Shown in pieces: positions 1,234 to 64,000 of a stretch of 64,000 nucleotides of DNA (positions within the stretch are counted from its first letter, which is position 1; the number at the start of each line of letters is the position of its first letter). The DNA is taken from assembly GCA_963920765.1 (NCBI GenBank), contig OY987251.1, forward strand, positions 5,706,501 through 5,770,500, written 5' to 3'. A model generated the notes under the pieces. That model was given only the letters and a program-made list of their open reading frames with translations, did no database searches and had not been told where the DNA came from. The DNA comes from Ulota crispa (taxonomy: Eukaryota; Streptophyta; Bryopsida; Orthotrichales; Orthotrichaceae). The translations under genes and the position numbers were made by a program.

Positions 1234-2177
1234 CCTAAAGGCCTACGTGGCCCCTCGAGGGTCAAGTGGGGTTTTGGGCATGTACTTACAGCTAAACTAC
1301 TTTGTGAGATTTTCTGAAACTTTTATACAAGATGAGGAATTCAAAGATCTACGTGGGCGTTTAATCTTTTCTTCATTTTGACATTTATTGAAGAAGTTAT
1401 GCATGCATTTCTAAACAAATAGGGGAAGGCAGGTAGCCCAAAACTTTTTTAAATATTGCATTGAAAAATAAATAAAAATCTGAAATTGATTCTTTAGCTT
1501 TATAGATATGTAGGAAGCTTCAAATTATTCAATTTTGATTAATGGGTGAGAAGTTTTAGTTTGCAGGTAGACATGGGACTCCCAAACCTCCATTCCTTTT
1601 GCCCCTTGCAAATTTTGATGCTCTGCTTTTTTGAGCCCTTTGTGTATTTATCTTTTGAATTGTTTTTTCCAAGTTGTAAGAGACTAAGATTCCTTGGTTT
1701 TCACCATTTGGGTCAAAGTAATTCAAATTTCTAAATCTTACATAAGTCCTCCAATTTTGCCGAGTGTATATGCAAATTTCATGGCCTTACGGCATTGCAA
1801 GATTTTACAAAGTATGATTCACACCTCCAATTTGTTTGAAAATTCTCTTACACTTAGTTAACTTGGTCTTCTACTTGGAAAAAATAAGACTGAACTTTGT
1901 GTAGAGCAATTTTTTTGATATAGGAACGGTCAAAGGCTTCTAAATTTTTTGGGCAACTGGGAAATAAACTTTTTTTTTCACTTCAGATGTCAATATCTCA
2001 CTCCTCTACATTTATAATGAGCTGATTTTTTTTCCCACACATACCTCCCATAGTCTAGGGCAAGAACTTACAATTGGATTTCCAAAAAAAACTGTTTTTC
2101 CTACCTTTCTACTCATTCCCCTAAAGGTGGCAATTTTCAGTGACTTTCACAAAAATAAGGGCTTGGGCCTTTAGGGG
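1234..2177. mobile_element. TTAA element, subgroup a (copy 1)
   Basis: The right end reads CCTTTAGGGG followed by TTAA at 2178-2181. The left end is worn (TTCCTAAAGGCC). The interior matches the copies at 3199, 6458, 28021 and 30760, and runs in the opposite orientation to the 3199 copy. It is non-autonomous, since no transposase-sized frame is present. Confidence 0.7.
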
Positions 2178-2181
2178 TTAA

Positions 2182-3194
2182 GAAACACTGATTCCCAGAA
2201 ATGGTTTTTGTAATTAGCTCAAGCTGCTTAGTGCTCTTCATAAAAATTAAAAATTAAAGATTTAAAGGAAACTATCAAAGATACCCCTTAGTTATTCAAA
2301 ATACCAAAAATTATCATGGCCTTGTGTAAGAATATTAATTATACCCCTTGTTTTCTTTAAGAATATCATTAACATCCCTATTTTTTTGGAAAAATATCAA
2401 AAAATTCTCCTCAAATATTCAAAATATCAAGTATATCCCTATGAAATTTGAAATTTAAAAGTATTTGTGGTTTTGTGTAAGAACATCAATCAAACTAGAT
2501 CATGGGTTATCTTTGAGAATGTCATACATGCCTTTAGTTTTCTTGTGCTTCTTATTGCAAATTTTTGTAAATACTAGGATAAGCTACCTTATGGTATACC
2601 TAGATTTGAGTTCAAAAAAATCACCTTGTGTACATAGCGACGCCACTAGGTATATGGTTGAAATTGGTTATATCTACTTTATTCTCTATTTTGTGCATTG
2701 CATATTTTGTCAACCGCGCAAAAAAACTATTTTTACAAAACCTTGTATATTGCACAAGAAAGCCTTTTCAATACCATGGGTTGCAACAAGAGAGGAATCC
2801 TAGATGCGTGTAAGAAAGTGATGCCACCTTGGATAAATAAGAGGAGCTTGTAAAGTGACAAATGTGGCCTTTGCGCTCCTTCTATAGCTCCTACATTGGA
2901 ATGCGATGGACTTGAACCAACTTCTCAAAGTCGTAAGCGTCAATTTTAGCATAGGTCCACTAATGTTTGGGGACTGTTTGAGCTTCTTTGGTAAAACTTT
3001 TGCATTTCTCATTTCAAACATTTTTTTAGTGCATGTACAAGATACCGCCTATGTACTTGCATTATAATTAGTTTAATTCCAAAGATCTAGCAAATTTTTA
3101 TCTTGGTTGATATGAACTTCAACCAATTCTTTTAATACTTCATTTAGTTGACTTTTCTATTGTTTCTAGATCTTTTTGCTCATTGATACCCACC
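2182..3194. other. Intergenic DNA with remnant of a tandem-phrase MITE
   Basis: The stretch 2265-2450 repeats phrases such as 'caaagatacccc' and 'aaaatatcaa'. It resembles the ends of the Mutator-like element at 60720-61223. The rest, about 2460-3190, shows nothing that I recognise. Confidence 0.4.
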
Positions 3195-3198
3195 TTAT

Positions 3199-4133
3199 CC
3201 CCTAAAGGCCCAAGCCATTTTTGTGTGAAAGTCATTGAAAATTGCCACTTTGAGGGGAATGAGTAGAAAACTAGGAAACAAAGTTTGTTTTGCAAATCCA
3301 ATTGTAGGATCTTGTTTTAGACTAGAAGAGGTACTTGTGGGGAAAAAATCAAGTCGTTCTAAATGGAGAGGAGGGAGATATTTACATCTAAAGTGAAAAT
3401 AAAGGTTTTTCTCCGTGTTGTTCAAAAAAATTTAGAAGCCTTTAACTACTCTTATATGAAAAAAATTGCTCTTCCCAAAGTTGAGCTTTTATTTTTCCAT
3501 GTAGGAGATCAAGTTAGGTATGTGTGGGAGAATTTTCAAATCAATTGGAACTATTCAACACATGGGAAAAAAATAGTAAGTAAAAAGAAGTAGAGAATGA
3601 GTCAAATCGCTAAATTGATAAGAATTTAATTATTGAAATGAAAAATGCTAATCCTAGCGGTCATAATGTTGTGATAAACAATCTACTTCCTTTGGTTTAG
3701 CTTTTTTTTCCAAAATATTGAAAATTGTGGAAAATAAAGGACTTCAAAGCTTATTTTAGAGTAGAGGATCTATAATTGCCCATAAACTAAGACATCTCAT
3801 AATTTTTATCTCATTGATTGAAATTGAATGATTCAAAGCTTCCCACATACAAAAAAAATCTAAAGAACCAATTTCAAATTTTTATTTTTAAAAAACACAA
3901 ATTTTAAAGAAGTTTTTGGGCTGCCCAAATTGCCCTCCCTCCCCTTGGTTGTAGAAATTCTTGCATAACTTCTTTGTCAAATGTCAAAATGAAGAAAAAT
4001 ATAGATGCTTGCGATGCTCTTGGAATTCTCCGCGTTCAATAAAAAATTTCACAAATTTACAAACAATAGCTTATCCAACAGTACATGCCCAAAATCCATT
4101 TGTCCCCCCAGGGGATAGTCGGGCATTTAGGGG
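3199..4133. mobile_element. TTAA-type element, subgroup a, flanked by TTAT
   Basis: The ends are CCCCTAAAGG and CATTTAGGGG. TTAT lies immediately outside both ends (3195-3198 and 4134-4137), so the duplicated target is four bases and not only the palindromic TTAA. This argues against a 2-bp TA duplication. The interior is an inverted copy of 1234-2177. Confidence 0.8.
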
Positions 4134-4275
4134 TTATTTTGGGCATTTGGTGCATGCGGTGAAGGTGCTTTTACACTTCAAACCCTTTCACCAACAACCT
4201 TGGAGTGAATATTTTACACAGTCACTCTATAATTGAGTATAACACACTTGTTGCTTGCTTCCACTATGCAAGTGA

Positions 4276-4740
4276 GTGCCACTTCACATTATGACCAAAG
4301 GTCCAGTGGCCTTCAATTTCCACCAAGATTGCAAGAAACCAAGACTTTAGCCTCTCAACCTTTCACACTAAAGGTCAAAGTTCAAAATTTGTTCCTATAA
4401 AACTAATTACATATCATCAATGTTTTAGCCAAAGCATTATTCTTTAAAAAGGTGTTTGGGTTGAACAAAAATGGAGGTTATGATTGAGAGGTAGTCAAGT
4501 TTTTTTTCATGAAGTAATAAAAATTTGACAAGATCTTGGCCATTAAATTGGAAGGTCTTATATATGTCATGAATTTGGATTTTGGGTTGGGCCTTTGAAA
4601 ACTTCACACTAATGCCGACTAAAAATTTCAAAAAAAAAATTGTTACCTATTTTCCACCTATTTATATGACCTCTTGACAAAATTTGACCACTCAATCCCA
4701 GAGCCTCTCAACTTGGTTGACTATGGTGTGAAGCGGCCCT
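4276..4740. mobile_element. MITE with 'accatagtgtgaag' ends (copy 1)
   Basis: The ends are inverted repeats: GTGCCACTTCACATTATGACC at the left and a worn complement ending GTGTGAAGCGGC at the right. The family recurs at 35109-35742, 49490-49960 and 62784-63288. The superfamily is not assigned because no clean target duplication was seen. Confidence 0.65.
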
Positions 4741-6457
4741 GAAATTAAATATCCTTGAATGTCCTTTGCCAAATATGTCAATCCCAAGGTGCTGTGTGTG
4801 AATCATCCTACCAATCAATACCACCAAGCACGTTGACACACGAGCAATCAGTTCATGCACAATTGCACATTCTGGTTTGTTGGTTTCCTTCAACATACCT
4901 ATTTTTTCTTCCTTTTCTTATGTTGAAAATTTTGCAAAGATACCCTTGTTAAAAAGATCAAGCCGTCTTATTTTGGAGATTTCCCAAAATGCTCATGTTC
5001 GTACCAACTGTCCAAGACACAACTACTCCTAGCTTGACACTTATTGCTTGACAACTTGTGGGCTTAACTCAAAGTTGCAAATTTACAACCTAAAATTCTA
5101 TAAACGCACATACACAAAAAATCAAACTTTTTTCAAGTGAGTTAGAATAGAAGAATTGAATTGAGAGAGAAAAAAAAGAAGATGTGTGCAAGTGTAATTT
5201 CCCTAGGACAATATGTAGTCAACCTATGTAAGGTACCAAAAGGTTGCAATAATTGGTGTCAAGTAATTTTGTGAAAAATTAGTTTGGATGATGCATATAA
5301 TACCCAAAGACATCTTGAGGATTTTTTTTAGAAATGTGAGAGGCCTTTTGATCTTAGGGCAACTACACAATACAAGTCAAGGCTAGTTTTCCAATGTTTG
5401 GCACTTCTAACGTTGACTTTTTATTGGTTGATTCTCTAAAAATGGCCTCAAGGCTTTCACATTAGAAGTCAAGGCCAGACTAACAGATTTTAGTGTTCAA
5501 AATACAATATTTAGCTCTAATTTCAAAGGTTTGAGTCCTCCAAAAACAACAATTCAATTCTTAGCCCTAGGGCCACTATTGGGTTTTCTCAAAAATATAA
5601 TTTTTTGAACAAAAGAAGATATTATTTTGAGATAGTCAACAATGTAGAATGGAATAATGACCTCAATGATGACTCTACTTGGTCTTTTTTTTTAATCCCT
5701 TTTCTCTTGAAATTTTCAAAATTTGTACCAGTGGCCTCAACTTTTTAGGCCTATACAAGTAAGAGAACTGACCCTTGTCATACTCATAATATAATGGGTG
5801 CTTGGGGTTGTTCTTAAGGCCATTTGAACTGAATTTTTGAATTGAATTTTTGATTAAAATGACCCCAAGTTTTCATGGCCTTTAATTTGACTCCTAATGT
5901 AAAGCGGCCGTTATTTTTACAAAATGTTTTGGTTTTTTCCTTAATTGTTTCTATCCAAACTCCAGACGTCAAAGCTGCACAAGTGTCCCTCAAAAGTCCG
6001 ACCATTCCAGCACTGCAAACTCCTGCACATTGCAAGCTCCAAATTTCAAAACAAACAAGGTTTGGCTTGACTTATATGTGAGCTCCATTACCCAATTGAG
6101 CGACAACATCGCCATGGGCCATGGTCCCAGCCCTGTCCTCCTGGTCTCTCAGGCTTAATATTTTGCTGTCTACATTGTGGCCAGCAAGACAGAGTGCCCC
6201 TTACAAGCCTCCATCCCCAAGTACACATTCTTTGAAGCTTTTTTTTTGTATTAGAAAAAGGACTGGGCCCAGTGCGGCGGTCCAATGTCAGAGCTGGGTC
6301 CATGGAGTAAACTCTGTGGGCTGTGGTGGGTTTGAAAACCATGGCCATCCTGATGTGAGCAGCAAAGCTGCGTTGCCAGTCAACGCTTAACCCTTACGGC
6401 CATTTCACACTACACTAAATAGTGCACTAAATAGTGCATTAGCCTTTAAAAGGTTGC
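4741..6457. other. AT-rich intergenic DNA, no gene recognised
   Basis: No coding exon could be supported. The interval 6110-6390 is somewhat GC-richer but has no recognisable protein in any frame. Confidence 0.4.
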
Positions 6458-7545
6458 CCCCTAAAGACCCAAGTGGTCCCTTGGGGTGAAGTGGGGTTTT
6501 GGGCATGTACTTACAATTAAATTACTTTGTGCACTACAAGAAAATTATAGTCAAATCTACAAAAAGTTGACAAAGCTTGTGACCTAATCTACATTATATT
6601 GTAGATTAGGTCATAATATTTGTCAACTCTTTGTAAATTCAACCATGATTTTCTTATAGTGGTGTGATTTTTTGAAACTTTTATAGAAGATGGGGAATTC
6701 AAAAATTGGCATGGTCATCTAGTTTTTTCTTCATTTTGACAGTTATTGAAGAAGTTATGCATGAGTTTCTAGAAAAATGGGGGAAGGCGGGCAGCCCAAA
6801 AACTTTTTTAAAACTTGCATTCAAAAAATAATAATAATTTTTAAATTGGTACTTTAGATTTATGTATATGTGGGAAGCTTTGAACCATTCAATTTTGATT
6901 GATGAGATGAAGGTTATGAGAAGCTTTAGTTTGTGGGTAAGTATGGGACTCCCAAACCTCCATTCCTTTTGCCCCTTGTAAAATTTGGCGCTTTACTTTT
7001 TTGAGTGATTTGTGTATTTGTTTTTGGATTCTTTTTTATTCCAAGTTGTAGTAGACTAAGATTCCTTGATTTTTACTTGTTGGATCACAATAATTCAAAT
7101 TTTTGAACTTTACATATATTCTCCAATTTTGCCTAGTGTATATGCAAATTTTATGGCCTTATGGCATTGCAAGATTTTACAAAGTATGATTCACACCTCC
7201 AATTCATTTGAAAATTCTCCCCACTTACCTAACTTGGTCTTCTACATGGGAAAAAAAAACCTCATCTTTGCATATAGCAATATTTTTGATATAGGAGTTG
7301 TCAAAAGCTTTTGAAATTTTTGGGCAGCATGGGAAAAAACTTTTTTTTTCACTTTAGATGCCAATATCTCATTCCTCTACATCTAGAATGAGTTGATTTT
7401 TTTCACACAAATACCTCCCGTAGTCTAAGGCAAGATCCTACAATTGAATTTCCAAATATAAAAAAAATCCAACATTTGTATTCATTCCCAAAAAGTGGCA
7501 GTTTTGAGTGACTTTCACAGAAAAAAGGGCCTGGTCCTTCATGGG
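6458..7545. mobile_element. TTAA element, subgroup a, interrupted by a CACTA foldback
   Basis: The left end is CCCCTAAAG without a clear TTAA. The right end is worn (CATGGG) and followed by TTAA at 7546-7549. Internally it matches 1234-2177 until 6531, where a 130-bp foldback interrupts the match, and the match resumes after 6664. Confidence 0.75.
6532..6661. mobile_element. CACTA-type foldback MITE, 130 bp
   Basis: It starts CACTACAAGAAAA and ends TTTTCTTATAGTG, the standard end motif of CACTA (En/Spm) elements. It is flanked by the 3-bp direct repeat GTG (6529-6531 and 6662-6664). Almost the whole element is a palindrome. The empty site is preserved in the related copy at 1234-2177. A sister copy lies at 12957-13085. 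Confidence 0.88.
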
Positions 7546-7880: not shown

Positions 7881-8842
7881 CCCCTAAAGGACCAAGGGCG
7901 TTTTTGAGAATGAATCTTAAAAACTGCCAATTTTAGTACATTGTTCAAAATTGAAAACAAAAACCTTTTTTCTCAATTCCAACTGCCCAAAAGTGTGTCA
8001 AGTAGATATGTTAACATGTGCAAAAAAAATTCAGCCCGTTTGACAATGCGGATTGTAAGATTATAACGTTGAAGTAAGAAAAATAGCTTTTTTTCATTCC
8101 TGCAAAACAAGGTCAACAAACTTTGAGCCTTCTTAGAGTAAAATTTTTGGTCTGCAGAAATTAGAGCTTTTTGACCATTCACAAGTATATGATGTTAGGT
8201 CCACTCATGAAAATTTTCAAATGCACAGATAGTATCTAGCTTATTCTAAATCACCGTGCACTGCAAGGAGGTGTAGTGAATTGGCAATACATTAGTCATT
8301 CTTTCATGATTTCTTGTGCAATGAGGAAGTCTTTTATTTGAAATTTGAATGGTGAAAAGTTAGAGACAATCATTTGGAATATGAGTAAAAAAATTTCAAG
8401 AGCTTTGTATTTATAAATTGAAAGATAATACTCATAATAGAGCTTGAAGTTAGAGTATTTTTTTATTCTTGAAACTACCCAAACATAGTTAACAAAATTT
8501 GACTCCCTTCTTACAGAGATATGAGAGTTTGATTTTTTTTTTTTTTTTGACAATTGTACATTATGTTTTTGTAGTTACATACTTGCCAAATTTCAAAAGT
8601 TGATGAGGGTTTTAGCATAAGATTCTCCAAAGATGCCCAAATTGTCTGAGCTACCCAAATTCTTTTGGGTAACATAACTTTTGAACCAGGCATCCGATTG
8701 GGGAAAAAATTACATTTCCAATTAAGGGATACATATTTGCACCTTGTGTAAAAATTTTGAGAACATCCAATAAAAATTAACTTCATATAACCCTACCCGA
8801 GTTCTCAAGTGACTATTGAACAACCACTTGATCCTTTAGGGG
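7881..8842. mobile_element. TTAA element, subgroup b (copy 1)
   Basis: The termini CCCCTAAAGG and CCTTTAGGGG are perfect inverted repeats, with TTAA on both sides (7877-7880 and 8843-8846). At 962 bp it has no long open frame. Its interior matches the element at 11017-12027 in inverted orientation. Confidence 0.85.
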
Positions 8843-9213: not shown

Positions 9214-9569
9214 CTCCTAAACGTTGAGGACGACAAAAACGTTCTCCGGCTCCGAAAAAAGATTTTGTGATTCAGAAAAAAGTCATTCTTCATCTGATTT
9301 TTTTCAAAAGTGGTCATAAACACACGGTTCATCATGGAAGACAAAAAATTACCTCTTGGGATGCATTCCTTTTTTTTAAACCCAAATTGTGATAAGATTC
9401 AAAAACATGGTGTTAACTCCCAAGCTGCTCTTCTTGTAATTTTCATGAGGGCACCATGCACTGTTGACTTTTTCAACTTTTTGAAGCAATACTACTGGTA
9501 TCCATGTGCAAAACACTGTAGAATGCTACAGGCAGGACAAGCCATGGTGATCCATCCGTCCTTTAAGGG
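9214..9569. mobile_element. TTAA element, subgroup c (copy 1, 356 bp)
   Basis: The ends are CTCCTAAACG and CCTTTAAGGG, with TTAA at 9210-9213 and 9570-9573. It closely resembles 42118-42475 and more distantly 38780-39112 and 53133-53795. Confidence 0.82.
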
Positions 9570-9873
9570 TTAAAACTAGTATATGCTGATAAATTCCATC
9601 CTCATGTTGGTGCACTTTATGTCTCTTTGAGAAGAATTTGACAATTTCATCCATTCTTTTTAGTGTTGAGGTAACAAGTGGAATACGAGGTATCAGAAAC
9701 AAAGCCTGGCATCTATAGTCCCCAGGCAAGAGAAATCCTTCAAAGTCATGGGTTAGCACATGCCATGTCCCAATTTAGAATTTGGTTGACATGGCAAACA
9801 GCCCCTATGCACGTTTGCCCATGCCCTTGTTTTCTAACCACATTAGGAATACTGTACCAAGGGCTGACTTCTA

Positions 9874-10187
9874 AGGTAGGAGCACCCATAAGCGTCACTG
9901 TCTTCATAACAATTACCTCTTAAATTTTGAAAAATTTGTGGAAATGAATAGATGTAATAACAAGGATGTACAACATGTGAACATGAACTCTTAAAAGTGA
10001 TTATGGGTGCAATGGCAGTTTGCTTTGTAAAAATTCATAATTTATTCACACAATATCCAAATAATACATTTGAAAGTGCAAACTCTCTTTTTTTCTGTTC
10101 CTAATAGGATCCTATAATTTGCTAGTTGTTTATTAATAGTCATCATGTTCAAAACCCTTAGTTTGACGTTTATGGGTGCTCCTACCT
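9874..10187. mobile_element. AGGTAG-end MITE, TA-flanked (copy 1, 314 bp)
   Basis: The inverted ends are AGGTAGGAGCACCCATAA and TTATGGGTGCTCCTACCT, with TA on both sides (9872-9873, 10188-10189). The same ~314-bp element recurs at 34392, 49114, 54546 and 57850. A TA duplication suggests the Tc1/mariner group, but the ends do not match the Stowaway consensus. Confidence 0.85.
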
Positions 10188-10189
10188 TA

Positions 10190-12956: not shown

Positions 12957-13085
12957 CATCACAAGGAAACCATGGTTGAATCTACAAATAGTTAACAAAG
13001 ATTGTGACCTAATCTATAGTACAGTGTAGATTAGGTCACAATCTTTGTCAACTTTTGTAGATTCAACCATGGTTTCTTTGTAGTG
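12957..13085. mobile_element. CACTA-type foldback MITE, 129 bp
   Basis: It is a near-perfect palindrome ending CTTTGTAGTG. The left terminus is worn (CATCACAAGG). Its interior matches 6532-6661 over 'aatctacaaa' and 'gtgacctaatcta'. No clear 3-bp duplication is visible, so it is probably an older insertion. Confidence 0.72.
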
Positions 13086-15632: not shown

Positions 15633-15866
15633 CCCTTAAAGGACCAAGCTACTATAATACATAGTATGTATGCTGCTATATAACTGACATTTGCTACCAA
15701 CAAAAAGTTCTAATTTGGGATCTTGACTACCTTACTAGAACAGCATTGATATATATTCTAACTTCTTTGTTGATCTCAAACATAATAAAGGTATGAATGC
15801 ACTCCAAATACAAGAAAAATATCTCGTATTGTATTGGTTGCAAAGGGATGCCTTGTCCTTTGAGGG
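15633..15866. mobile_element. TTAA element, subgroup d (copy 1, 234 bp)
   Basis: The ends are CCCTTAAAGG and CCTTTGAGGG, with TTAA at 15629-15632 and 15867-15870. The second TTAA is shared with the next element. The interior matches the copies at 15871, 17810, 18038, 19643 and 52905. Confidence 0.88.
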
Positions 15867-15870
15867 TTAA

Positions 15871-16096
15871 CCCTTAAATGTCCATAGGGCATAGTATATA
15901 CGCTGATGTATAATTGTCATTTGCTATCAATAATTTTTTAAAATTTGGGATCTCAAGTAGCTCACTAGAACTGCATTGATCTATTCTCCAACTTCTTGGT
16001 TGATCTCAACTATAGTAAAGATGTAGATTCATTCCAAATACAAGCAAAATATCCTGTATTGTATTGATTAGAGCGACACTCTCAGACATTTAGGGG
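15871..16096. mobile_element. TTAA element, subgroup d (copy 2, 226 bp), abutting copy 1
   Basis: The ends are CCCTTAAATG and CATTTAGGGG. It is flanked by the shared TTAA at 15867-15870 and by TTAA at 16097-16100. It lies in the same orientation as its neighbour at moderate identity, so the pair is not a recent tandem duplication. Confidence 0.88.
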
Positions 16097-17446: not shown

Positions 17447-17809
17447 TAGATTGTGTTTAAATTCTTGTGCAACGTTGTACTGTTTTTTTTAAGGATGAAA
17501 ATAACAGTACAGTACATGCAATGTGTTGATTGTATAGAGTTGGTTGTTAGGATTTCGGTATCGCCGTTTGCAACGGAGGACGAAAATCAAAGAAAGGTTT
17601 CTGTATGAAAGTGCAAGATTAGGGTTTCCAGCTGATGAGCCATTGGGATTATTGGTGTGTTGCTCCATAGTGACATGGACAATGCTATTTTGTGAGCGTT
17701 TTAGCCATGAGTGGTTTTAACCATAAATGGTGAGTGAAGATTTATGTGAGTTCAAAATTAATGAAAAAACTTAAAATATAGCAAGTTTTTCAAGAGAAAG
17801 AAAGTTTAA

Positions 17810-18033
17810 TCCTGCAACGTTTGAGCGTGTTGCTTGCGATCAGTACAATACAAGGTATTTTTCTTGTGTATTTGGAATAGATTCACACCTTGACTACATT
17901 TGAGATCAACAAAGAAGTTGAAAATATAGATCAATGCAATTCTAGTGAGCTATTTGAGATCCCAAATTGAAAACTTCTTGTTGGTAGCAAATGTCAATGA
18001 TGCGGTAGCATATACACTATGCCCTATGGTTAT
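17810..18033. mobile_element. TTAA element, subgroup d (copy 3), abutting copy 4
   Basis: The interior is an inverted match to 15633-15866. The left end is worn (TCCTGCAACG) but preceded by TTAA at 17806-17809. The right end has lost its GGG and meets TTAA at 18034-18037, which is shared with the next copy. Confidence 0.72.
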
Positions 18034-18037
18034 TTAA

Positions 18038-18252
18038 CCCCTGCAACTAGTACAATACAAGGTGTTTTTCTTGTATTTGGAACAGATTTACACCTTTACT
18101 ACATTTGAGATTAATAAAGAAGTTGAAATATAGATCAAAACAATTTTAGTGAGCTATTTGAGATCCCAAATCCCAAATTGAAAACTTCTTTGTTGGTAGC
18201 AAATGTCAATGATACGGTAGCATATACACTATGCCATATGGTTGTTTAAGGG
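18038..18252. mobile_element. TTAA element, subgroup d (copy 4, 215 bp)
   Basis: It begins CCCCTGCAAC after TTAA 18034-18037 and ends TTTAAGGG before TTAA 18253-18256. It lies in the same orientation as copy 3 and is a very close match to it, unlike the more diverged pair at 15633-16096. Confidence 0.82.
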
Positions 18253-18451: not shown

Positions 18452-21400
18452 ATGGATGAATCGAGAGGTGTTTCTTCATATCTCAGAAACCCTAGACCTT
18501 TCTTCAACCCAACTGCATCCTCCTCTGATGAATGCGAGGTATCTGAGGTGGTGGAAGCAACCTTTGATTCGGCTCAGGTTGCTAACATCCGAGCTATGGT
18601 AGCTGAGTTGCTTGTGTTTGGATTTAAGGGAACGTCTCTGAACAACCACGCAAGGAGAATGATTTCAATGGGTGAGAGCTTGTCTTCTTCTTCTATTTTC
18701 TGCCTCTTCTCTTTTCTATTTCTAGACGGCATTCTTCTTTTCAATCTAAGGTTGTGTTCACACTTAATGTTAAGTGTGGTATTACGGAAGGAAAATTAGA
18801 TCCATTTGGACACACCTTTAGATTGCATTCATATTGCTAATACCCTCCTAACATCAAGTGTGAACATACTCTAAGACAAGCACATTTCTTGTTACTTGGA
18901 TTGTGAAAGTTCTCATATGCTTTTGTTAGCAAATAACGGAGAATTCCGTAAGAATACGTTGTTTGGATACCATTAGCAAAGAGTTAGTTTAAACTTGTAC
19001 TGGCAGGTGACTTCATATTGACATAAGTTCTTCTATTGAGGTGGTGTACATTAGGAGTAGTCACACCTTTTTCACCCCATTTTCAATCTTCAAGGAATGG
19101 GAATGGGCACTCTCTCAGTTCCATTCTTTGAAGAATGAGAAGTTTTTTCTCTTCACTTCTAAAGGAGCAGAATGGGTGTGGAGAAGTTTTAGAGCATGAA
19201 GTTTTTACAAATGCATGTCTCTTTTTCATTTTGCTCTTCTTGTTTTCATCCTCCTTATAGTTGGAGATTTTGGTTGAGTGTGTGAATGCAACTTGCTTTC
19301 TTGCTATGTCACCATTTTCTAAGTAAGGTTATTGTCCATTCTCCACCACCCATAAAAGGGGAGTCACACTTTATTCATGGAGAAGTGCTCCCATTGGCTC
19401 CTATTTCCACTACCCCTGTTATCAGAATCATTATCAAATTCATTGTGCAAGATTTATTTGATGTAATCACATGTCGGTACATGTCCCAGTTACTCTTGAA
19501 TAAGCTGAAGATGATTGTATGTGGTGTAGGTGCTGGAGGAGTGATACTTTTCAACAGGAACTTCAAAGACCCTGAGCAGGTCACGCTTTCTACATTTTGA
19601 CTGATTTTTCTATATCAATTTTCTTGAATTGTACTTGTTTAACCCTTAAACGTTTGAACGTGCCACTGTGACCAGTACGATATAAGATATTTTTCTTGTA
19701 TTTGGAATGAATTCACACCTTTACTACGTTTCAAATCAACAAAGAAGTTGAAGAATAGATCAATACAATTCTAGTAAGCTATTTGAGATCTCAAATTAAA
19801 ACTTCTTATTGATAGCAAATGCCAATTATACAGCAACATATATACTGTTGCCTTTTGGTCATTTTAGGGTTAATTTGTACTGAATTTTTTTATTCATCTT
19901 TTAGGTTGCACGCTTGTGTGCCGATCTTAAAAGAGAAGCGGGAGAAAGACCACTTTTGATAATGGTCGATCAAGAAGGGGGTTACGTTCAGCGCTTGGGA
20001 CCTCCATTCACCGTCATACCCCATGCCAGAGTAGTTGGAGACACGTGTGACCCATCGGCAGCTGGAGCAATAGCAAGTGTGATAGGGAAGGAACTTCGAG
20101 CAGTGAACATCGACATGAACTTGGCACCAGTCTTGGATGTCGACACCAATCCTGAGAACACAGTCATTGGCAAGAGGTCCTTTGCAACAACACAGGCTGC
20201 CGTTGCTAACTTCGGGTGAGTGTCTGAAAATCCTTTGTATCTCTATGACAGCATCCAACACAGCTCTAAGCTCTGAAATCTGTTTGATTGTGTACAGTGT
20301 GCCCTCCAACAAGTTCTCAGAGTTCATAATATCTCAGCTAGCCATTATTTCAACTTTGTCAAACGATAACTAGTCCCATAGCACTGCTAGTATTTTTTTC
20401 CATTAATATGATCTGTAAATATGATTTGTAAAATATGTGGTTTGAGATTGCTAGCGTATGGCCTTGTGGGATCTTTTTGATTTCAAAGTGTTCAATTGGT
20501 ATTCTTCATCAGTAGTTACTGCCTAGCTAAGTTTCAAAGAACTTGAGAACTTGTTGGAGGGCGTTGTACACAATTTTTTTTCATCTACAATTGCTGTGTT
20601 TTGCATTTTGAGTGAGTTTAGGGTTGAGGGTTTTGTACGATTATTGTGTTTGCATTTTGAGTAGGTTTAAGGTTTAGGATTTTGTATAATTGATGTGTTT
20701 TGCATTTTGAATAGGTTTAGGGTTTAGGTTTTGTACAATTGACGTGTTTTTTGTTTTGAGCAGGTTTAAGGTTTACGGTTTTGTACAATTGTTGTGTTTT
20801 GCGTTGAGTAGGTTTAGGGTTTAGGATTCAGTACAATTTCTGTGTTTTGCGTTTTGAATAGGGTTTAGGGTTCAGGGTTTTGTACACTGGATGCACACAG
20901 ATTCGCGTTCATAAGGAGCTTGCAGTACGAAGGAGTGGCAGCATGTGCAAAGCATTACCCAGGGCACGGAGGCACGTTCCTAGACAGCCATGAGCACCTG
21001 CCTCTTCTTCCTCACAGCTTGACACAACTCATGAAAACCGAGATTCCGCCCTTCCAGAGAGCCGTGGATGCAGACGTGGCAGCGATCATGGTGGCTCACA
21101 TCGATGCACCCTGCTTCAAGAAGACCTTTCCATCATCAGAACCCAAACCGGCGACGATGTGCAAGGATGCAATTGACTACTTAAGGTAGGAATTCCATAA
21201 ACCGGTTACTCCTCAATAATGGCACAGTGGACTGTTCTGAAACTAACCAACAATAGCTGGCTCTAAAAAAGATTTTGAAAAGATACTATTTTTTTGCATT
21301 TGATTGGTTCACACTTGTTTCGGAACAAGGTTCTAGAGGTAGCCGTTTTAAGTGAACCTATGAAATTAGAATAGGTCCAAATGAAGAATCCACATTTATC

Positions 21401-30141: not shown

Positions 30142-30148
30142 TTAAGGG

Positions 30149-34847: not shown

Positions 34848-34849
34848 TA

Positions 34850-38779: not shown

Positions 38780-39112
38780 CCCATAAACGTTGAGGCTGAC
38801 TCGTTTTGTCTGATGGTTGACAAAAAAAAATACTGTTTTGTTTAAGTGAACAATGAGACATGATCCATCATGGAAGGCAAAAAAAAACAACTTCATTGAA
38901 TGTACTCATGTATTTTTGTATCTTAGACTGTGAAAAGATTCATAGAAACAATGTTAGGTCTCATGTTGTCTTCTTGCAATTTTCATAAGGACAATATTGC
39001 AGTGCTGGCTTTTGCACCTTTTGCTAGTAGTATTAAGTTTTGTAAACACTTTGTTATGTTTGCCATACCATTGTAGCTGGGCAGCCATAGTGACTAGCTC
39101 ATCGTTTAAAGG
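38780..39112. mobile_element. TTAA element, subgroup c (copy 2, 333 bp)
   Basis: The left end is CCCATAAACG after TTAA 38776-38779, and the worn right end (GTTTAAAGG) precedes TTAA 39113-39116. Shared interior phrases with 9214 and 42118 include 'catcatggaaggcaaaaa'. Confidence 0.78.
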
Positions 39113-42117: not shown

Positions 42118-42475
42118 CCCCTAAACATTGAGGAGGACAAAAAACATCCTCCAGCTTTGAAAAAACATTATGCAATTCAGAAAAAAGTCATTTTTCATCT
42201 GATTTTTTTCAGCAGTGACCATAAACACATGGTCCATCATGGAAGACAAAAAAATACCTCTTGAGATGCATTCATTTTTTTTGTAACCCAAATTGTAATA
42301 AGATTCAAAAATATGGTGTTAGCTCTAAAGCTGTCCTTCTTGCAATTTTCATGAGGGCACCATGCACGATTGCCTTTTCCAACTTTTTGAAGCAATACTA
42401 CTAGTGCCCATATGCAAAACACTGTAGAATGCTACACGCAGGGCAAAACACGGTTATCCATCTGTCCTTCAAGGG
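42118..42475. mobile_element. TTAA element, subgroup c (copy 3, 358 bp)
   Basis: It starts CCCTAAACATTG after TTAA 42114-42117 and ends TCAAGGG before TTAA 42476-42479. It is the closest relative of 9214-9569. Confidence 0.85.
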
Positions 42476-48800: not shown

Positions 48801-49113
48801 ATGAGCGGAATAAGAGCAGACTATCTTAGAAAGCCAACCAAATGAAATGTGCAAAAATTGATTGAAATTTAAATAAATCGGCTAAAAATTGACCAAGTTT
48901 TTGAAAAAAAATCAATTGTAGTGTAGGTATATGGAGAATAGTCGATGCATCCATTGGAAAAATTAGATGAAAATGAGAAATGTAGGGTTTTAGCTGAAAA
49001 AGCTCAAAATCTCCCCGCACACTAGTGTGGCATTGTGGGGGCTGGGGTGCATGACCAATTATCATTGGGTTCAAGTTAGGGGGTGGAGGACCCCTTAAAT
49101 TATTTTGTTAGTA

Positions 49114-49428
49114 AGGTAGGAGCACCCATAAAGCGTTAGTTTAAGGGTTTTGAACATGATGAGTATTAATAAACAGCTAGCAAATTATAGGATTCTATTA
49201 GGAACAAAAAAATGATGAGTCTGCACTTTCAAATGTATTATTTGGATATTGTGAGAATAAGTTGTGAATTTCTAAAGAACAAATTGCCATTGCATCCATA
49301 ACCACTATTAAGATTTCATGTTCACATGCTATACATCCTTGTAATGACATCTATTCACTTTCACAAATTTTCCAAGATTTCAAAGGTGATGGTTATGGGG
49401 ACAGTGGTGCTTATGGGTGTACATACCT
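49114..49428. mobile_element. AGGTAG-end MITE (copy 3, inverted, 315 bp)
   Basis: The ends are AGGTAGGAGCACCCATAA and TTATGGGTGTACATACCT, with TA outside both. The interior matches 9874-10187 in reverse orientation. Confidence 0.84.
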
Positions 49429-49489
49429 TAAGGGCAAACTTCCATTCTCAACCACGGTGATGAGCATTTTCCAACTTAGGAAAACTTAG

Positions 49490-49960
49490 GGCCACTTCAC
49501 AGTATGGCCAAAGGTCAAGAGGCCGTCAATTTTCACCAACTAAATTGCAAGAAATCAAGATTTTGACCTTTGAATCCTTCATATGAGAGGCCAAAGTCCA
49601 AAGTTTGTCGTCCTTCAAACTTCCTTCACGGTGTCATTATTTGGCCAAAATTACGGCTTTTTGAAAGAAATTTGGGTTGTGCAAAACTGAAGGCCCAAAC
49701 TATGGTCAAAAGGTTGTCAATTACTTTTTAAAAAATAATCAAAAAATGACAAAATCTTGGCCATTAGATTGGGTGGTTTGATAAATGTTATGGATTTGGA
49801 CTTTGGGCTTGGCCTTTGGAGGTTTTAGATTAAGGTCAACTAAAGGTTTCAAAAAAAATGTTTTATTTCCTATTTGCATCCCACTTTTTTGATCTCTCAA
49901 CAAAGTTTGAGCACTCAATCTCAATCTCTCAACTTGGTCAACCATAGTGTGAAGCGGGCT
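49490..49960. mobile_element. MITE with 'accatagtgtgaag' ends (copy 3)
   Basis: The left end is GGGCCACTTCACAGTATGGCC and the right end ACCATAGTGTGAAGCGGGC. It is close to 4276-4740 along its length. Confidence 0.7.
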
Positions 49961-50457
49961 TGAGAAACTCAAAATTCTTATGCTTTTTGTGAAGAAAAAA
50001 AACTCAATTTAGTGCAAAAACATCAATAAAGAGCCATGGTGGAAATGAAATTTGACTTCTCACCTACCAAAAATTATGAGTATAGATATTCCATTAAAAG
50101 ATTGAATTAAGAAATTTTAAATTCACATTTGGATACAAAAGCCTTGATTTAATTTAGAACCACAAAGAAAGATACAACTTTCCATTTCCAATATAGGGGG
50201 CAAATTATTACTTTTATCCTTGTTTATAAAGAGAGTTGAAGCATTCCACCATATATGACCCCATAAACACATACATACAATAGTCCAATCCGTGAAAAAC
50301 CTACCTAACCTCCATTTCCAATTCTTGATTGCAATGTTTTCTAATACATTTCCATGCATGGCTTTGTAACTGGATTGTTGTTTTTGCAATTTCTCCAAAT
50401 TCAATGCAACATTGAAATTGGTCTTAGGTGTCATCTCCTTAATCCTACCCAACTTAA

Positions 50458-51355
50458 CCCTTTAGAGACCACCAAACCATATTTTGGTTGAGCAGAGTGG
50501 TTTTGGCTTATAGAGTAAAATTGCTTAACAATTTAGAAATTGGTCATGAAGAATGCTTGTAATCACAAGAATTTTGCATCCGATCAAAAAAACAACAATG
50601 GACTTGGGTTTGTGAGTTGATAAATAATGGTGTTTATACATCATGGCCTCAAAATACGTATCCATATTTGGTCAAGGATGGATCAAAATATCAACAAAAT
50701 ACATCAAACATCCAAGAAGAATGCCAAATTTCACTTGTGCAATCTTTAAAAAATCCAAATTGCTTAAGGAATACGCTTATATTGTTTCCTATTTGGTAGT
50801 AGGATGATTATAGTATTTGAGGATCTATTGAAATGATGCTATCATTTCATCTCAAAAATTTGTCATCCTACATTTAAGGCCAATTCTTGATTGTTTTCAC
50901 CAATTGGATTTGCCATAGCATTTATCAAATTTCTTGTAAAGCTGTTTTTGGGTAGCAAGTAAGGTGGATTTTTTACTCTATTTCTTAGCTACACCTTGTG
51001 ATTTCTATTTTTATCCATTTTGTGTCAAACTAGTCTTATTGGAAATGTGGGAAACCCCGCTTTCTAGAAATATAAGGCTCTTCTCAAGCAAAGTTTGTAT
51101 GAAGCATTAAAATCCAAAACCACACAAGCATGAAAACTAGAGATTTTCCACCTATGCCTCACTCAATCATTATAATATTTCACCTCCAACGTTTGATATA
51201 GTGGAAATTTTGATACTTTATAGTAAACAAGGTTTTCTTCCCATTTGTACAGTTGGATTATTAAAAGTGAGTCCATATTTTATTCAACGGCACATTTAAG
51301 TTTATTGCCCCAATTTCTAGTGGAATTTGTGAAAATGTGTATGGTCTTTAAAGGG
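50458..51355. mobile_element. TTAA element, subgroup f (copy 1, 898 bp)
   Basis: It starts CCCTTTAGAG after TTAA 50454-50457 and ends CTTTAAAGGG before TTAA 51356-51359. The copy at 63293 matches it closely as far as the window edge. Confidence 0.88.
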
Positions 51356-52904: not shown

Positions 52905-53128
52905 CCTCTAAACATCTCAAAGACATGTTGCAGCCAATACAATACAAGGAACTTTTTTTCTTGTATTTGGAATAGATCCACATCTTTACTACATTCAAGA
53001 TTAACAAAAAATCAAAATATAAATCAATGCAATTTTAGTTAGCAATTTTAGATCCCAAATTAAAACTTTTTATTGGTAGCAAATGTCAATTATACATCAA
53101 CCTACTATGCCCATAGAGTATCTAAGGG
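52905..53128. mobile_element. TTAA element, subgroup d (copy 6), first of a three-element chain
   Basis: It starts CCTCTAAACATC after TTAA 52901-52904. The right end is TCTAAGGG followed by TTGA, one base off TTAA, where the next element begins. Confidence 0.75.
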
Positions 53129-53799: not shown

Positions 53800-54445
53800 C
53801 CCCTAAACGACCCTGAGGACATAATGTGTCCTTGACCAACTTTTGAAGTTAAATATAACCTTACCAACTTATTACTTTCAGTAGACTATATTTTTGAAAC
53901 ATATTTTTGAAGTTTAGTTATAGTTTCAACAATCTAATTTTGCAAATGATAGATTATGATTTTTTATTCAATATTTTGTGCACAAGTGATCATTGCAATC
54001 TTGACTTTATGTAGTGTTTAGGGCTCTTGGGAATGAGCCTCAAATATACTAGATCTTTGAGAAAATTTCACGTGAGAAATTCATTTAAAAAAATTGCAGA
54101 ATAGATTTTGAGAAGTCATAATTTGATTGGGGTTATGCATGTTAGGCCCTTTAACCTCATATTATGTTTGGTGACCAAATTTTTAATCTTGACATGTGAA
54201 AAAAAGATTGAAAGATTTCAAATCACTTTCATAATTTTTACACCCTTGTGATCAAACATTATAATCTTTCAATCCATAAGAGATACTGTTGTGTTTTCTT
54301 TTCTAATATAATCTCTGGCATACCTAATTTGATTTTATACGGTTACAACTCAAAAAGAATTGACACAATTTATCAAAATTTTGGCTTTTTTTTCAAATTA
54401 GAGCAAATTCCTAGAAGCTCAAGAAGTTCCAGGGTCCTTTTAGGG
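53800..54445. mobile_element. TTAA element, subgroup e-like (646 bp), third of the chain
   Basis: It starts CCCCTAAACG after TTTA and ends CCTTTTAGGG before TTAA 54446-54449. Interior phrases match 36661-37298 in reverse ('atgagcctcaa', 'tcaatctttcaat'), although the termini are of the common CCCCTAAA type. GGG and another TTAA follow directly (54450-54456). Confidence 0.65.
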
Positions 54446-54545
54446 TTAAGGGTTAAATATCACATCCTCAATCTCCTTGCTCATGTTCCATCTACAGTTG
54501 TCAAAATCCAAGCTGAATATGGGAGGCCAATTACTTCACCCACTA

Positions 54546-54860
54546 AGGTAGGAGCACCCATAAGCGTCAATCTAAGGGTTTTGAACATGATGACTATTAA
54601 TAAATAGCTAGCAAATTATAGGATCTTATTAGGAACAAAAAAAAAATGAGTTTGCACTTTTGAATGTATTATTTGGATACTGTGAGAATAAGTTGCAATT
54701 TTTTAAGGAGCAAACTGCCATTGCACCCATAACCAACACTAAGGTTTCATGTTCACATGTTGTACATCCTTGTGATTACATTTATTCATTTCCATTGATT
54801 TTCCAAGATTTCAGAGGTGACTATTATATAGACACTAACGCTTGTGGGGTATTCCTACCT
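54546..54860. mobile_element. AGGTAG-end MITE (copy 4, inverted, 315 bp)
   Basis: The ends are AGGTAGGAGCACCCATAAGC and a diverged partner GGGGTATTCCTACCT, with TA outside both. The interior matches the other copies in reverse orientation. Confidence 0.82.
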
Positions 54861-54957
54861 TACCACAAAAGAGTAAATAAAAGTATACAACCCTCATGAT
54901 GCTAACAAAAGGAGGAAATTTCACATAGAGTGAATGTTTGGTAAGTGAGCATATTAA

Positions 54958-55595
54958 CCCCTCACCGCCCATGGTACTTTTGAGTATTTCAGAATTTGCT
55001 TGAAAGTGAACAAAATGTTGGCATTTTGATCAATCTTATCCATTTTCTTTGAAGTGCAACCGTAAAAATTCAAAATAGACATGTTATAGGTCACATGGGA
55101 AAAGAAATCACAACAATATCACTTATGGATTGAAAGATTATAATGTTTTATCATGAGGGTGCTAAAATTGCAAAAGTGATTTGAAGTCTTCCAATCCTCT
55201 TTTTGCATCTCAAACCTAAAATTGAGGGTACCAAAAAAATATAAGTATGTAAAGTATAACATGCGTAACCCTAATCAATTTACGACTTCTCAAAATTTAT
55301 TCTACAATTTTTAAAATTGAATTTTAATGTGATTTTTTCTCCAAGTTCTAATGTACTTGAGGCTCATTTTCAAGAGCCTTCAACATTAGAAAGTGAAAAT
55401 TTGCAATGGACACCCTTGCACAAAATCTTGAATAGACAAATCACTTTAATTCATTTTCAAAATCAGACTCCTAATGTTGAAACTAGACTTCAATAAGAAT
55501 TTAAAAATAATAATATCACTAAATCCTAAAAAATATTGTGTATCTTTGAATAAGATTCAAAGAGGCCCAATTTGGGCCCCTTAGGCGGTGAGGGG
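54958..55595. mobile_element. TTAA element, subgroup e (copy 2, 638 bp)
   Basis: The ends CCCCTCACCGC and GCGGTGAGGGG are identical to those of 36661-37298, with TTAA at 54954-54957 and 55596-55599 and the same length to the base. Confidence 0.9.
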
Positions 55596-56292: not shown

Positions 56293-57202
56293 CCCCTAAA
56301 CGCCCAAGGCACCACATTTTGGTGTTCAAAAAACTTCAAGAAACTTTGAAACCCTGTTGAAGGCAAAAAATATATTGTTTTCAGGTGTTTTTTTGGGAAA
56401 ATTGTCTACTAAAGTTAGCTCCACTGTTCAAATTTTCTTTCCTCCATATGTAATTCTAGTTGTTTTTGGTAGAAGCTTAACCGCAAGAATACATTTTGTG
56501 TCATGAATAGTGTCATGAATAGTATTGTGAATAGTATCACAAAGCCTATGACAAATTGCTACATTGTAAAAACGGGCATCAAGTTGAGAAAAAGGTGCAG
56601 ATTTCCCCTGGGCACTCCCTTGGGCAATAAGGGCCCTTTTATTGAAATTTTAACATCCAACAAAATACAAAAGTACTTTTGGAATAATTTCATTTAGAAT
56701 GTCTTTGTTATACAAATTAGAACTCACTCGCCGCTAAATTTTCTCTCATCCATAACAATTTTTGGTCAATAATTGAAGCTAAAAAAACTCTTTGTATTAG
56801 GAAGTTACGCTTTGACAATTGCATTGCGGCTCACTTGTGAAACCATGGTCATGGATTTGGAAGGATGGCCATTAGTTTTGAAGTAATAACAATGAACATT
56901 AAAGCATCCTAAATGGTTGTTTCCCAATTTTGTTTCCACAAGCTACCAATTTGCATTAGAAGTTTTGGGTAGCTCCAAAAAAAACAAAAAATTATGTACT
57001 CATCATCATCCAATCACAAATACCTTAAAATTCGCGTAACCATTTTAGATTATTTTTGGGTAGCGCCATCAAGAAGCCTTAAAATTCAAGATTCAATGAT
57101 CACAATTTTATTTTAATGTTTAATAATGATCTTACAAGAAAAATTCAAGAACTTCAAAACTACCTTTTGAATACAAGAAAAACGCCCTTGGACATTTAGG
57201 GG
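56293..57202. mobile_element. TTAA element, singleton of 910 bp
   Basis: It starts CCCCTAAACG after TTAA 56289-56292 and ends CATTTAGGGG before TTAA 57203-57206. Near 56500 there is a short tandem 'gtcatgaatagt' repeat. The interior is not shared with the other ~900-bp copies. Confidence 0.82.
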
Positions 57203-57576: not shown

Positions 57577-57849
57577 GATGCCACTTTGTGGTGATGGCAA
57601 ACATATTTGTTTCAAGATTATACATACTTAAAGGAACTTTGTCCACTCTTCCCTTTTTGCTTTCATTGGCTTAAATTCCATAAATTTGAATATATAAATT
57701 TGGAATAAGTATATTTGACATCATCGTTCAATGGCCATTCAATAAATATGAAAATTTCTTGTCTTTTCTTTATAGAATTCCTTGACATGGTGCAATGTGG
57801 TGGATTTACCAAAAAGGTGTGGTGGATTTAGCAATTCCTTGTATGTGTA

Positions 57850-58163
57850 AGGTAGGAACACCCATAAGCGTTAGTGTCCCCATAACCGTCACCTGTAAAA
57901 TCTTGGAAAATCTGTGGAAGTTTTTAGATGAGATTACAAGAATGTACAAAATGTGAACATGAAACCTTAGTGTTGGTTATGGGTGCAATGTCACTTTGCT
58001 CTTTAAAAATTCACAACTTATTCTCAAAGTATCCAAATAATACATTCAAAAGTGCAAACTCATTTTATTTATGTTCCTAATAGGATCCTATAATTTGCTA
58101 GATGTTTATTAATAGTCATCATGTTCAAAACCCTTAGTTTGACGCTTATGGGTGCTCCTACCT
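57850..58163. mobile_element. AGGTAG-end MITE (copy 5, 314 bp)
   Basis: The ends are AGGTAGGAACACCCATAAGC and GCTTATGGGTGCTCCTACCT, with TA outside both. It has the same orientation and length as 9874-10187. Confidence 0.87.
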
Positions 58164-58166
58164 TAC

Positions 58167-59300: not shown

Positions 59301-59302
59301 AG

Positions 59303-59974
59303 GGGGTTGTCACACCTTTTGCGCCCCCATTCTCCCATTCTCAATCTTGAGAGAATGGGGACGTGCCCTCTCTCCTCAATTCGTGGAGTCCCCCATTTCT
59401 TTAACCCTTAAACGGCCCTAGAGCCCATTTCTGGCCGTATGTACAGCGGTATATATATAGCTGTATTTGAGTTGCTTTGAGGACTTTTCAAAAAAAATTA
59501 TGCATTCACGATCATACAACCCTTCAATATGTATGTTTGTAACACTTATTTTCCAGCTAATTCAAACTTCTAAATATTAATTGCGACCATATTTGGTACT
59601 GTATCTTTAGAGCCCAAAGGCCCTTTAGGGGCTAAAGATTGAGAGAAGTTTTCTTCTTCACTTTCAAAGGAGAAGAATGGGTGTGAAAATATTTTTGCAT
59701 GAACTTTTTTATTAATATGTGTGTCTTGCTTTTTTTTACTTTCACTCTCACTATAAATTGAAATCTCAATTGAGTGTTGATTTCTTACTACATTATCATT
59801 TTCTAATTTCTAAGTAAATTTTTTCTCCATTCTCCTTCTTCTACCGCCCACAAAAGGGGAATACACCTTTGCCCACAAAAGGGGAATACACCTTTTTCAT
59901 GGAGAGGTGCTCCACTACAAAAAAAAAATCGTTTTTATAGAAGTTTCATTCTCGGAGAAGGAGTGACTACCCCT
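59303..59974. mobile_element. MITE with 'gtcacacc' end, carrying a nested TTAA element
   Basis: It is related to the intron copy at 19054-19417, with phrases 'ccattctc', 'gagaagaatgggtgtg' and 'acaaaaggggaa'. The right end is GAGTGACTACCCC. A 227-bp TTAA element interrupts it at 59405-59631. Confidence 0.62.
59405..59631. mobile_element. TTAA element, singleton of 227 bp, nested
   Basis: It starts CCCTTAAACGG after TTAA 59401-59404 and ends CCTTTAGGGG, followed by CTAA (one base off). The host sequence matches the 19054 element on both sides of the insertion. Confidence 0.78.
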
Positions 59975-61900: not shown

Positions 61901-62256
61901 TGGTGGCTAAATTTAGCACAACGAGGAAAAAAATGGACATCAAGGAACTTTATTTAGGCAGATTGTCGCCACAATCTTCACCTATTTTTGACTCTGGCTA
62001 CTTTAACACTGAATTTTCTTTGATGTGATAGCATTGGATGAAGATGATAATTCTAACATGATTATTAGATGTACCAAAATTGTGGATGAAAATTATTCAT
62101 ATGTGCTGATTTTGCGGATGGAGGTGCACGCATGGATTGTTTGATCCATTTTTGGTTATTTATTCCTGGCCTGCGTGTTTACTTGACCAATGAGAATTCT
62201 AAAGAAATTCCCTGTAGCAGAGTGTGCTAGATTTGGATCTGTAGCACAATTAGCAG

Positions 62257-62672
62257 TAGGGGTAGTCAGGGCACTTTCTTGAGCGAGTGTGAAGAATGAG
62301 AATGTAGATGTGCCGCGTTGTTGGAGGGTGTTGGAGCTTGTTGTTGGTTTAGCGTGCTAAACTTTTCAAAGTTTCATTATTCTCCTCTGGAGGTGAAGAA
62401 TGGAGTGGAGAATGAGTTAGCGTGTGATTTTCTTACCATAGTTTGCTCATTTTCCCTGCTCATGAATCGCTTTTCACTGTAACTCATTTTGCTCCTCCAA
62501 TAGTTGGTCGTGCTGCTTTCCTCTAAAAAACCATTCTCCACTCTCCATCACACAAAAATGGGGTGTTACAGCATCTTCACAAAGAACAAACTCCTATTGG
62601 CTCCTACTTTCACTCAACCAATTCTCAATCTCCATCCTCTTCTCATTCTTCGTGAAGACGTGACTACGCCTA
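62257..62672. mobile_element. MITE with 'gtagtcaggg' and 'gtgactac' ends (copy 3)
   Basis: The right end CGTGACTACGCC and interior phrases 'attctccactctcc' and 'tggctcctactttcac' match 19054-19417 and 59303-59974. Confidence 0.55.
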
Positions 62673-62783
62673 GTGTTTTGGGGCACTAGAGCTAATAATT
62701 GGGAAATTGCATTTGTGGAGTGTGTTGTTCCCTCTACGTTCCCATATCCCCATTGAATTATCACACTTTGCTTTGGGGTGTGA

Positions 62784-63288
62784 CTTAGGTCTCACACTAT
62801 GGCCAACCAAGGTGAGAGTGCGTGGGATTGAGTGACCAAACTTAGTCAAGAGGCCAAAGAAATGGGCTGAAATAAGGAACAAAAATATTGCTTTTGAAAC
62901 CTTTGGCTACCTTAATGTGAAGCCATTGCAATGATTACATAGTAATTTTTGTTATCATTTGATATTTTTAAAAAAATCATAGGAAAGAGGCACAAAAAAC
63001 TAGGGGTATTAATGATGTTTTCAAAGATACTATAGATATAATTGGCATTCCTACACAAATCTAGGGGTATTTTCTATGTTTCAAATAATATATGGGTATA
63101 TTCAATATTTTGGAAGAATTGAGGGGTGTTTTTTATATTTTCCCTACTAGCAATTTGGAAGGCAATAAAACTTTGAACTTTGACCTCTATTGTGAAGGAT
63201 CAAAAGTCCAAAATCTTGATTTTTTGCAATCTCATTGATGGAAAGTAACAGCCTCTCCTCAACCTTTGACCATAGTGTGAAGTGACCC
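62784..63288. mobile_element. MITE with 'accatagtgtgaag' ends (copy 4), interrupted
   Basis: The left end is GACTTAGGTCTCACACTATGG and the right end ACCATAGTGTGAAGTGACCC. The stretch at about 62940-63150 is foreign and resembles the 60720-61223 family ('gaggggtgttttttatattttccc'). It abuts the next TTAA element. Confidence 0.62.
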
Positions 63289-63292
63289 TTAA

Positions 63293-64000
63293 CCCTTTAG
63301 AGACCACCGAACCATATTTTGGTTAGGGAGAGTAGTTTTTAGCCTATATAGTAAAATTGCTCAACAATTTGGAAAATGATCTTGAAGAACGCTTGTGATC
63401 ACAAGAATTTTGCATCCAACCCAAGAAACAACAATGGAATTGGATATGTGAGTTGATAAATAATGGTGTTTATACATCATGGCCTCAAAATACGTATCCA
63501 TATTTGGTCAAAAATGGATCAAAGCAACAACACAATACATCAAACATCCAAGAAGAATGTCACATTTCAATTGTGCAATCTTAAAAAATTTCAAATTGCT
63601 TAAGGAATACGCTTGTATTGTTTCTCTATATGGTAGTAGTACAATTGTAGTATTTAAGAATCCATTGAAAAGATACTATCATATTATTATTATTTTAAAT
63701 TATCCTACATTCAAGGCCAATTCTTGATTGCTTTCACCAATTGGATTTTCCATAGCAATTATCAAATTTCTTGTAGAATTGTTTTAGGGTAGCAAAGAAA
63801 GTGGGATTTTTGACCCTTTTTGTTCACTTAGCTACACCTCGTGATTGCTATTTTTGTCTATTTTGGGTGAAACTAGTCTTGTTGGAGAGGTGGGAATCCC
63901 TGCTTTCTAGAAATGTAAGGCTCTTCTCAACCAAAGCTTGCATGAAGCGTTAACATTCAAAACCACACAAACATGAAAAATAAGAAATTTTCCATATACG
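63293..64000. mobile_element. TTAA element, subgroup f (copy 2), cut by the window edge
   Basis: It starts CCCTTTAGAG after TTAA 63289-63292. It follows 50458-51355 closely to the last base of the window, so the right end lies outside. Confidence 0.82.

Follow-up and report, generated by a model that had tools for sequence, protein, structure and literature searches.

Elements in the window

The window, by which we mean the whole stretch of 64,000 bases analysed here, lies on contig OY987251.1 of Ulota crispa (C10:5706501-5770500; the assembly comprises 274.8 Mb in 157 contigs). It contains a TIR1/AFB auxin receptor gene, which speaks for a land plant as host, a partial glycosyl hydrolase family 3 gene and a swarm of TTAA-flanked elements with inverted ends starting with CCC, ends that recur in three transposase-bearing elements of the same genome. 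The nature of this swarm, proposed to consist of miniature inverted-repeat transposable elements (MITEs) of the piggyBac type, is the subject of the present analysis.

The swarm is real. Strict left ends, TTAA followed by CCC(C/T)T(A/C)A, occur 13 times in the window and the mirrored right ends 12 times, where 30 first-order Markov sequences of equal length averaged 0.07 and 0.17. We catalogued 25 elements covering 14,253 bases (22.3%). TTAA is found on both sides of 16 of them and TTAT on both sides of one (3199-4133), while in the other eight one side is damaged, missing or unread. Four of the 25 are incomplete (1234-2177, 17807-18033, 30764-31671 and 63293-64000). The recount comes close to the original prediction, which had put the number at about 27 elements on roughly a quarter of the window, at least 17 of them flanked by TTAA on either side and one by TTAT.

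Comparison of the window with itself sorts the element interiors into several families, the original prediction having counted at least six that have only the ends in common (strand in brackets where assigned; TTAA on both sides unless stated otherwise). Family A is found at 1234-2177 (-; left end eroded, TTAA on the right), 3199-4133 (+; TTAT on both sides), 6458-7545 (-; TTGC left, TTAA right, interrupted by a different, palindromic insertion at 6532-6661), 28021-28980 (+) and 30764-31671 (+; left end missing, TTAT right). Family B forms two adjoining pairs, at 15633-16096 (15633-15866 and 15871-16096) and at 17807-18252 (17807-18033, with an estimated left boundary and TTAA on the right, and 18038-18252), in each of which a single TTAA is common to both neighbours; further copies lie at 19643-19869 and 52905-53128 (TTAA left, TTGA right). 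Family C is present at 9214-9569 (+), 38780-39112 and 42118-42475 (+), and family D, with CCCCTCACCG ends, at 36661-37298 (+) and 54958-55595 (+). The element at 53800-54452 (-; TTTA left, TTAA right) has a D-like interior with a left end of the CCCCTAAA type, and its right end may be placed at 54445 or 54452. Family F, with CCCTTTAGAGACC ends, is found at 50458-51355 (+) and at 63293-64000 (+; TTAA left), where the copy continues past the window edge. The catalogue is completed by family H (7881-8842), family I (29913-30148, with a right end at either 30141 or 30148), family J (37687-37925), family K (40838-41746), element L (56293-57202) and element M (59405-59631; TTAA left, CTAA right).

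Abundance and age in the genome

Elements of this kind are by no means confined to the window. The end motif TTAACCCCTAAAGGNCC occurs 10,998 times in the 274.8 Mb (5,515 and 5,483 on the two strands) and its reversed control not once. Genome-wide we counted 1,217 elements that measure 230-260 bp with their flanks and have exact 8-bp ends and TTAA on either side; the control yielded a single one. DNA resembling the window elements makes up 5.5% and 11.4% of two other 100-kb samples, low estimates given that the library was built from the window elements themselves; the reversed library gave no hits. At 22% the window may therefore be denser than is usual in this genome.

The copies are diverged. 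For the family C copy at 42118-42475 we found 39 other full-length copies that are 88-90% identical (best 40 scored of 2,967 first-look candidates), and the family A copies within the window are mostly 72-82% identical. There was no sign of a recent burst in the one MITE family compared genome-wide, again among the best 40 candidates scored. Most of the transposition activity probably lies in the past.

Target site and duplication

Two insertions into repeats allowed us to compare filled with empty sites. The first, C10:5675864-5676098, interrupts a repeat of which all five insert-free copies hold a single site (three TTAA, one CTAA and one TTAG, judged by eye). The second, C10:5705061-5705443, lies just upstream of the window, and all 13 insert-free copies of the repeat likewise hold a single site (four TTAA and nine TTAG, also by eye). 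Neither of these clean sites shows duplication of TA or of 3 bp, although the palindromic nature of TTAA calls for caution here. Most other matches to joined flanks were not empty sites, one flank together with the element start matching a neighbouring or similar filled copy. Two further candidates were set aside: at 9214-9569 in the window the match is weak (75% over 67 bp) with AATA and no TTAA at the site, and a compound insertion in L036 carries seven extra bases and is not clean.

The palindrome matters for one alternative, namely that the elements are Tc1/mariner MITEs duplicating TA, or PIF/Harbinger MITEs duplicating 3 bp, which happen to prefer TTAA. A TA duplication at T-TA-A would be expected to yield filled and empty sites identical to those of a 4-bp duplication. 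The flanks that deviate from TTAA are more informative. In the 230-260 bp class, 25 elements have TTAT on the left, of which 22 have TTAA and three TTAT on the right, and another 25 have TTAA on the left and TTAT on the right. The inner flank base, next to the element, and the outer one are hence equally variable (22 versus 25). Moreover, the three elements with TTAT on both sides compare with about 0.2-0.3 expected if each side mutated on its own (22 x 25 or 25 x 28, divided by the 2,434 flank readings that 1,217 elements provide), and the window contributes a further such case. Together, the equal variability and the excess of concordant TTAT favour a duplication of 4 bp rather than of TA, albeit with small numbers. 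A 3-bp duplication of the PIF/Harbinger type is difficult to reconcile with the agreement of four bases at both flanks, including the TTAT/TTAT cases. Since, in addition, the transposase within the traced elements described below is of the piggyBac type and neither mariner nor Harbinger, we regard either of these origins as very improbable.

Several points limit the case for a 4-bp duplication. The empty sites by themselves cannot tell 4 bp from TA, and the test based on flank variants hangs on three concordant TTAT cases. In a local sample TTAA accounts for 59 of 61 concordant flank pairs, the other two being TTAT and TTTG; two concordant pairs other than TTAA, where 2.3 are expected by chance, are at chance level. 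Neither the match at 9214-9569 nor the insertion in L036 added a clean empty site.

Elements carrying a transposase

The search for full-length copies with the same kind of ends and a DDE_Tnp_1_7 transposase (PF13843) was positive three times. The three elements traced are 5.0-8.0 kb long, carry the transposase inside paired inverted ends and have TTAA on both sides. The C3 element (C3:13130266-13135284, 5,019 bp) ends in CCCCTCATCGCC and CCCTTCATTGCC, which resemble the ends of window family D (CCCCTCACCGCC); its transposase contains two stops. The C7 element (C7:11814408-11822432, 8,025 bp), with ends CCCCTAAAAGCCC and CCCCTAAAGGCCC and likewise two stops in its transposase, harbours, nested within it, a relative of family H that is 918 bp long and has TTAA flanks of its own. 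Both ends of the C7 element resemble family A: over 59 bp the right end is 83% identical to the left end of one copy, and over 49 bp the left end is 82% identical to the right end of a second. In the C5 element (C5:10867270-10873007, 5,738 bp; one stop in the transposase) the first 15 bases are identical at both ends. Element L of the window looks like a shortened relative of this 5.7-kb element: it is 81% identical to the right 582 bp of the C5 element and 70% identical to the left 109 bp, as expected of a copy that lacks the middle. A fourth transposase, on C4, is accompanied by a right end, TTAACCCTTTAGCGACC, that is like family F. The stretches examined around two more transposases contained no ends (L030) or no convincing ends (L037).

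The piggyBac identity put forward in the original prediction is thus borne out by the DDE_Tnp_1_7 domain inside three traced elements, along with the TTAA sites and the flank variants. Kolobok and Sola3 also use TTAA, and the elements could in principle belong to one of these or to another superfamily with the same target. However, the presence of PF13843 inside three elements with such ends leaves this with a very small probability.

Diversity of the transposases

At least 120 stretches of the genome match PF13843, the best of them over the full length of the domain (E 1.3e-73). The count is a lower bound, given that scoring covered 116 of the 528 first-look candidates, and some genes are represented by two stretches. 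No match was obtained in 14 control genomes. Two stop-free frames match the domain with E values of 8e-60 and 4e-67, and in the PDB they match, at E <= 0.001, only the transposase of 6x67/6x68 and piggyBat (9c0f). The matches are spread over contigs C1 to C11. This distribution bears on the possibility of contamination by animal or fungal DNA, a thought that suggests itself because piggyBac is best known from animals, especially insects. A contaminant would hardly be found on all these contigs, with one end motif repeated 10,998 times and with window elements adjoining a TIR1/AFB gene, and we consider it extremely unlikely.

We aligned 14 of the 120 transposase matches, picked mainly by score and few stops. 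All three catalytic aspartates, at the positions that we take to be those of the motif, are kept in nine of them, and at least one is lost in L029, L037, L041, L043 and L044. Identities range from 28% to 69% and define six groups (L029/L039/L040; L032/L033/L045; L031/L037/L041/L043/L044; and L030, L038 and L042 each on its own), with 43-69% identity within and 28-45% between groups. It had been proposed that one transposase acted on many non-autonomous partners, and the CCC-type ends and TTAA sites common to the families would be in keeping with a single driver. However, the six groups lie far apart, and three end types are found among the traced elements and the C4 right end. As both the transposase lineages and the end types are several, the proposal of a single transposase is not supported and appears improbable to us.

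The transposases show some further features of note. A Cys/His-rich tail, seen by eye in the C7 frame, may correspond to the cysteine-rich C-terminal domain of this superfamily. Upstream frames in the C4 element (L029:125-475) and the C3 element (L031:290-661) are 38% identical over 45 amino acids (E 8e-6) and have no Pfam match above the cut-off; this common stretch is possibly an extra exon or a second protein. Two transposase loci with open frames were considered as possible host-adopted genes, and the idea was dropped. At C1:1180709-1181995 the open frame is in two pieces, being open only from within the domain and with an intron-like break, and at C8:19570986-19572215 there is a transposase gene with an open frame. 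Pairs of transposase matches in opposite orientation with equal or near-equal scores, 14 to 109 kb apart (C2:36765124/36779670, C7:18203169/18223004 and C10:676128/785346), suggest inverted duplications. Modelling the structure from six of the transposase sequences gave a poor result (mean predicted local distance difference test score, pLDDT, 38.2; predicted template modelling score, pTM, 0.26), which was not used.

Other repeats in and near the window

The window also contains another kind of MITE, distinct from the swarm and about 320 bp long, whose ends are TAAGGTAGGAGCACCC...GGGTGCTCCTACCTTA. Its copies, at 9872-10189, 34571-34849, 49112-49430, 54544-54862 and 57848-58165 in the self-comparison, are 84-90% identical, one of them cut short, and it is a copy of this kind that hosts the piggyBac MITE at C10:5705061-5705443. 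Near-palindromic elements of 125-130 bp are found at 6532-6661 and 12961-13085. The first sits inside a family A copy, and comparison with an uninterrupted copy shows an overlap of 3 bp, which suggests that it made a 3-bp duplication. Copies of yet another repeat family, whose ends are of the type AGGGCCACTTCACA...TGTGAAGCGGCCCT, lie at 4275-4742, 35109-35741, 49488-49963 and 62788-63289. Finally, a tandem array at 20586-20893 with a 49-bp unit contains TTTAGGG motifs. The core of the piggyBac-like ends, CCCTAAA, equals what we take to be the plant telomere unit, a likeness that is perhaps a coincidence.

Discussion

We are highly confident that the elements in the window are non-autonomous MITEs of the cut-and-paste piggyBac type, most likely served by more than one piggyBac transposase, the genes for which are carried on 5-8 kb elements of this genome. 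This view builds on the observed ends and flanks, on the two insertions with clean empty sites, on three elements that carry a transposase between paired ends, and on the sequence that two of these three have in common with family A and element L. Most likely, several distinct piggyBac transposases recognised the CCC(C/T)T(A/C)A-type ends of the MITEs, excised them and inserted them at TTAA with duplication of those four bases, and each transposase lineage may prefer or serve its own end type. That these very transposases moved the MITEs is what we infer from the sequences.

A number of observations weigh against this interpretation and have to be set beside it. None of the 120 PF13843 matches lies inside the window, and 110 of them contain stops, leaving ten that are stop-free. 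The C4 transposase is open across nearly the whole domain, but its third aspartate is gone, and for this element we found no left end apart from the adjoining family F copy, so that family F is linked to it by a right end only. The C3 element and family D have an end type in common but no longer sequence, and for families B, C, H, I, J, K and M we came upon no partner that carries a transposase.

Within the piggyBac superfamily, the elements resemble the systems represented by 6x67/6x68 and piggyBat 9c0f in the DDE_Tnp_1_7 domain, the three-aspartate motifs, the TTAA sites, the 4-bp duplication and the CC..GG termini, the last two being given as piggyBac features in one report (PMC10045372). 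They differ from other piggyBac elements in their plant host and in the short upstream frame common to the C3 and C4 elements. The three traced elements are also longer, at 5.0-8.0 kb (the 8.0-kb one including its nested 0.9-kb element), than the piggyBac elements of bees, for which 2.23-3.52 kb are quoted (PMC10140906). The MITEs are like the piggyBac MITEs of insects, as generally known, in being short, using TTAA sites and relying on larger elements, but they reside in a plant, have several end types and reach thousands of copies. Small size, high number and inverted ends also liken them to the familiar Stowaway and Tourist MITEs of plants. Those make TA or 3-bp duplications and have mariner or Harbinger partners, whereas the partner here is piggyBac.

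The original prediction held piggyBac to be rare or absent in land plants. It is indeed little described there, and we found no dedicated account of a land-plant piggyBac population in the literature searched, which was covered in part. Absent, however, it is not, having already been mentioned in passing and listed in three plant repeat tables. Elements of the piggyBac type are said to be present in plants as well as in fungi and animals (PMC8086355, PMC10140906, PMC10813416), a 2024 review counts PiggyBac among the plant superfamilies (PMC10794571), and a 2025 paper calls plant occurrences occasional and names red algae (PMC12732532). The repeat tables give 1,230 piggyBac-labelled copies with 122,417 bases for the fern Ceratopteris (PMC6890710), 38 copies with 2,143 bases for Dracaena (PMC6294377) and a single copy for the feather grass Stipa (PMC8319324); the superfamily label is the same as for the Ulota elements, but the amounts are small. 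We rate the Ulota elements as a new branch of a known superfamily, one that is unusually rich and divergent, and the host carries this branch in a mostly decayed state.

It seems to us somewhat more probable than its opposite that land plants of this lineage hold an old, resident piggyBac branch in which six or more deep transposase lineages each have an end type and MITE families of their own. Together these would account for a large part of the genome, and repeat annotation would mostly have missed them. To our knowledge, plant repeat annotation rarely considers piggyBac. Although piggyBac serves widely as a tool for gene transfer, the literature searched says very little about its natural history in plants. 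The presence in one plant of piggyBac MITEs by the thousand, together with many divergent transposases, changes the picture of the range of the superfamily; plant repeat annotation gains a missing class, and the natural pairs of ends and transposases offer material for studying how end recognition diversifies.

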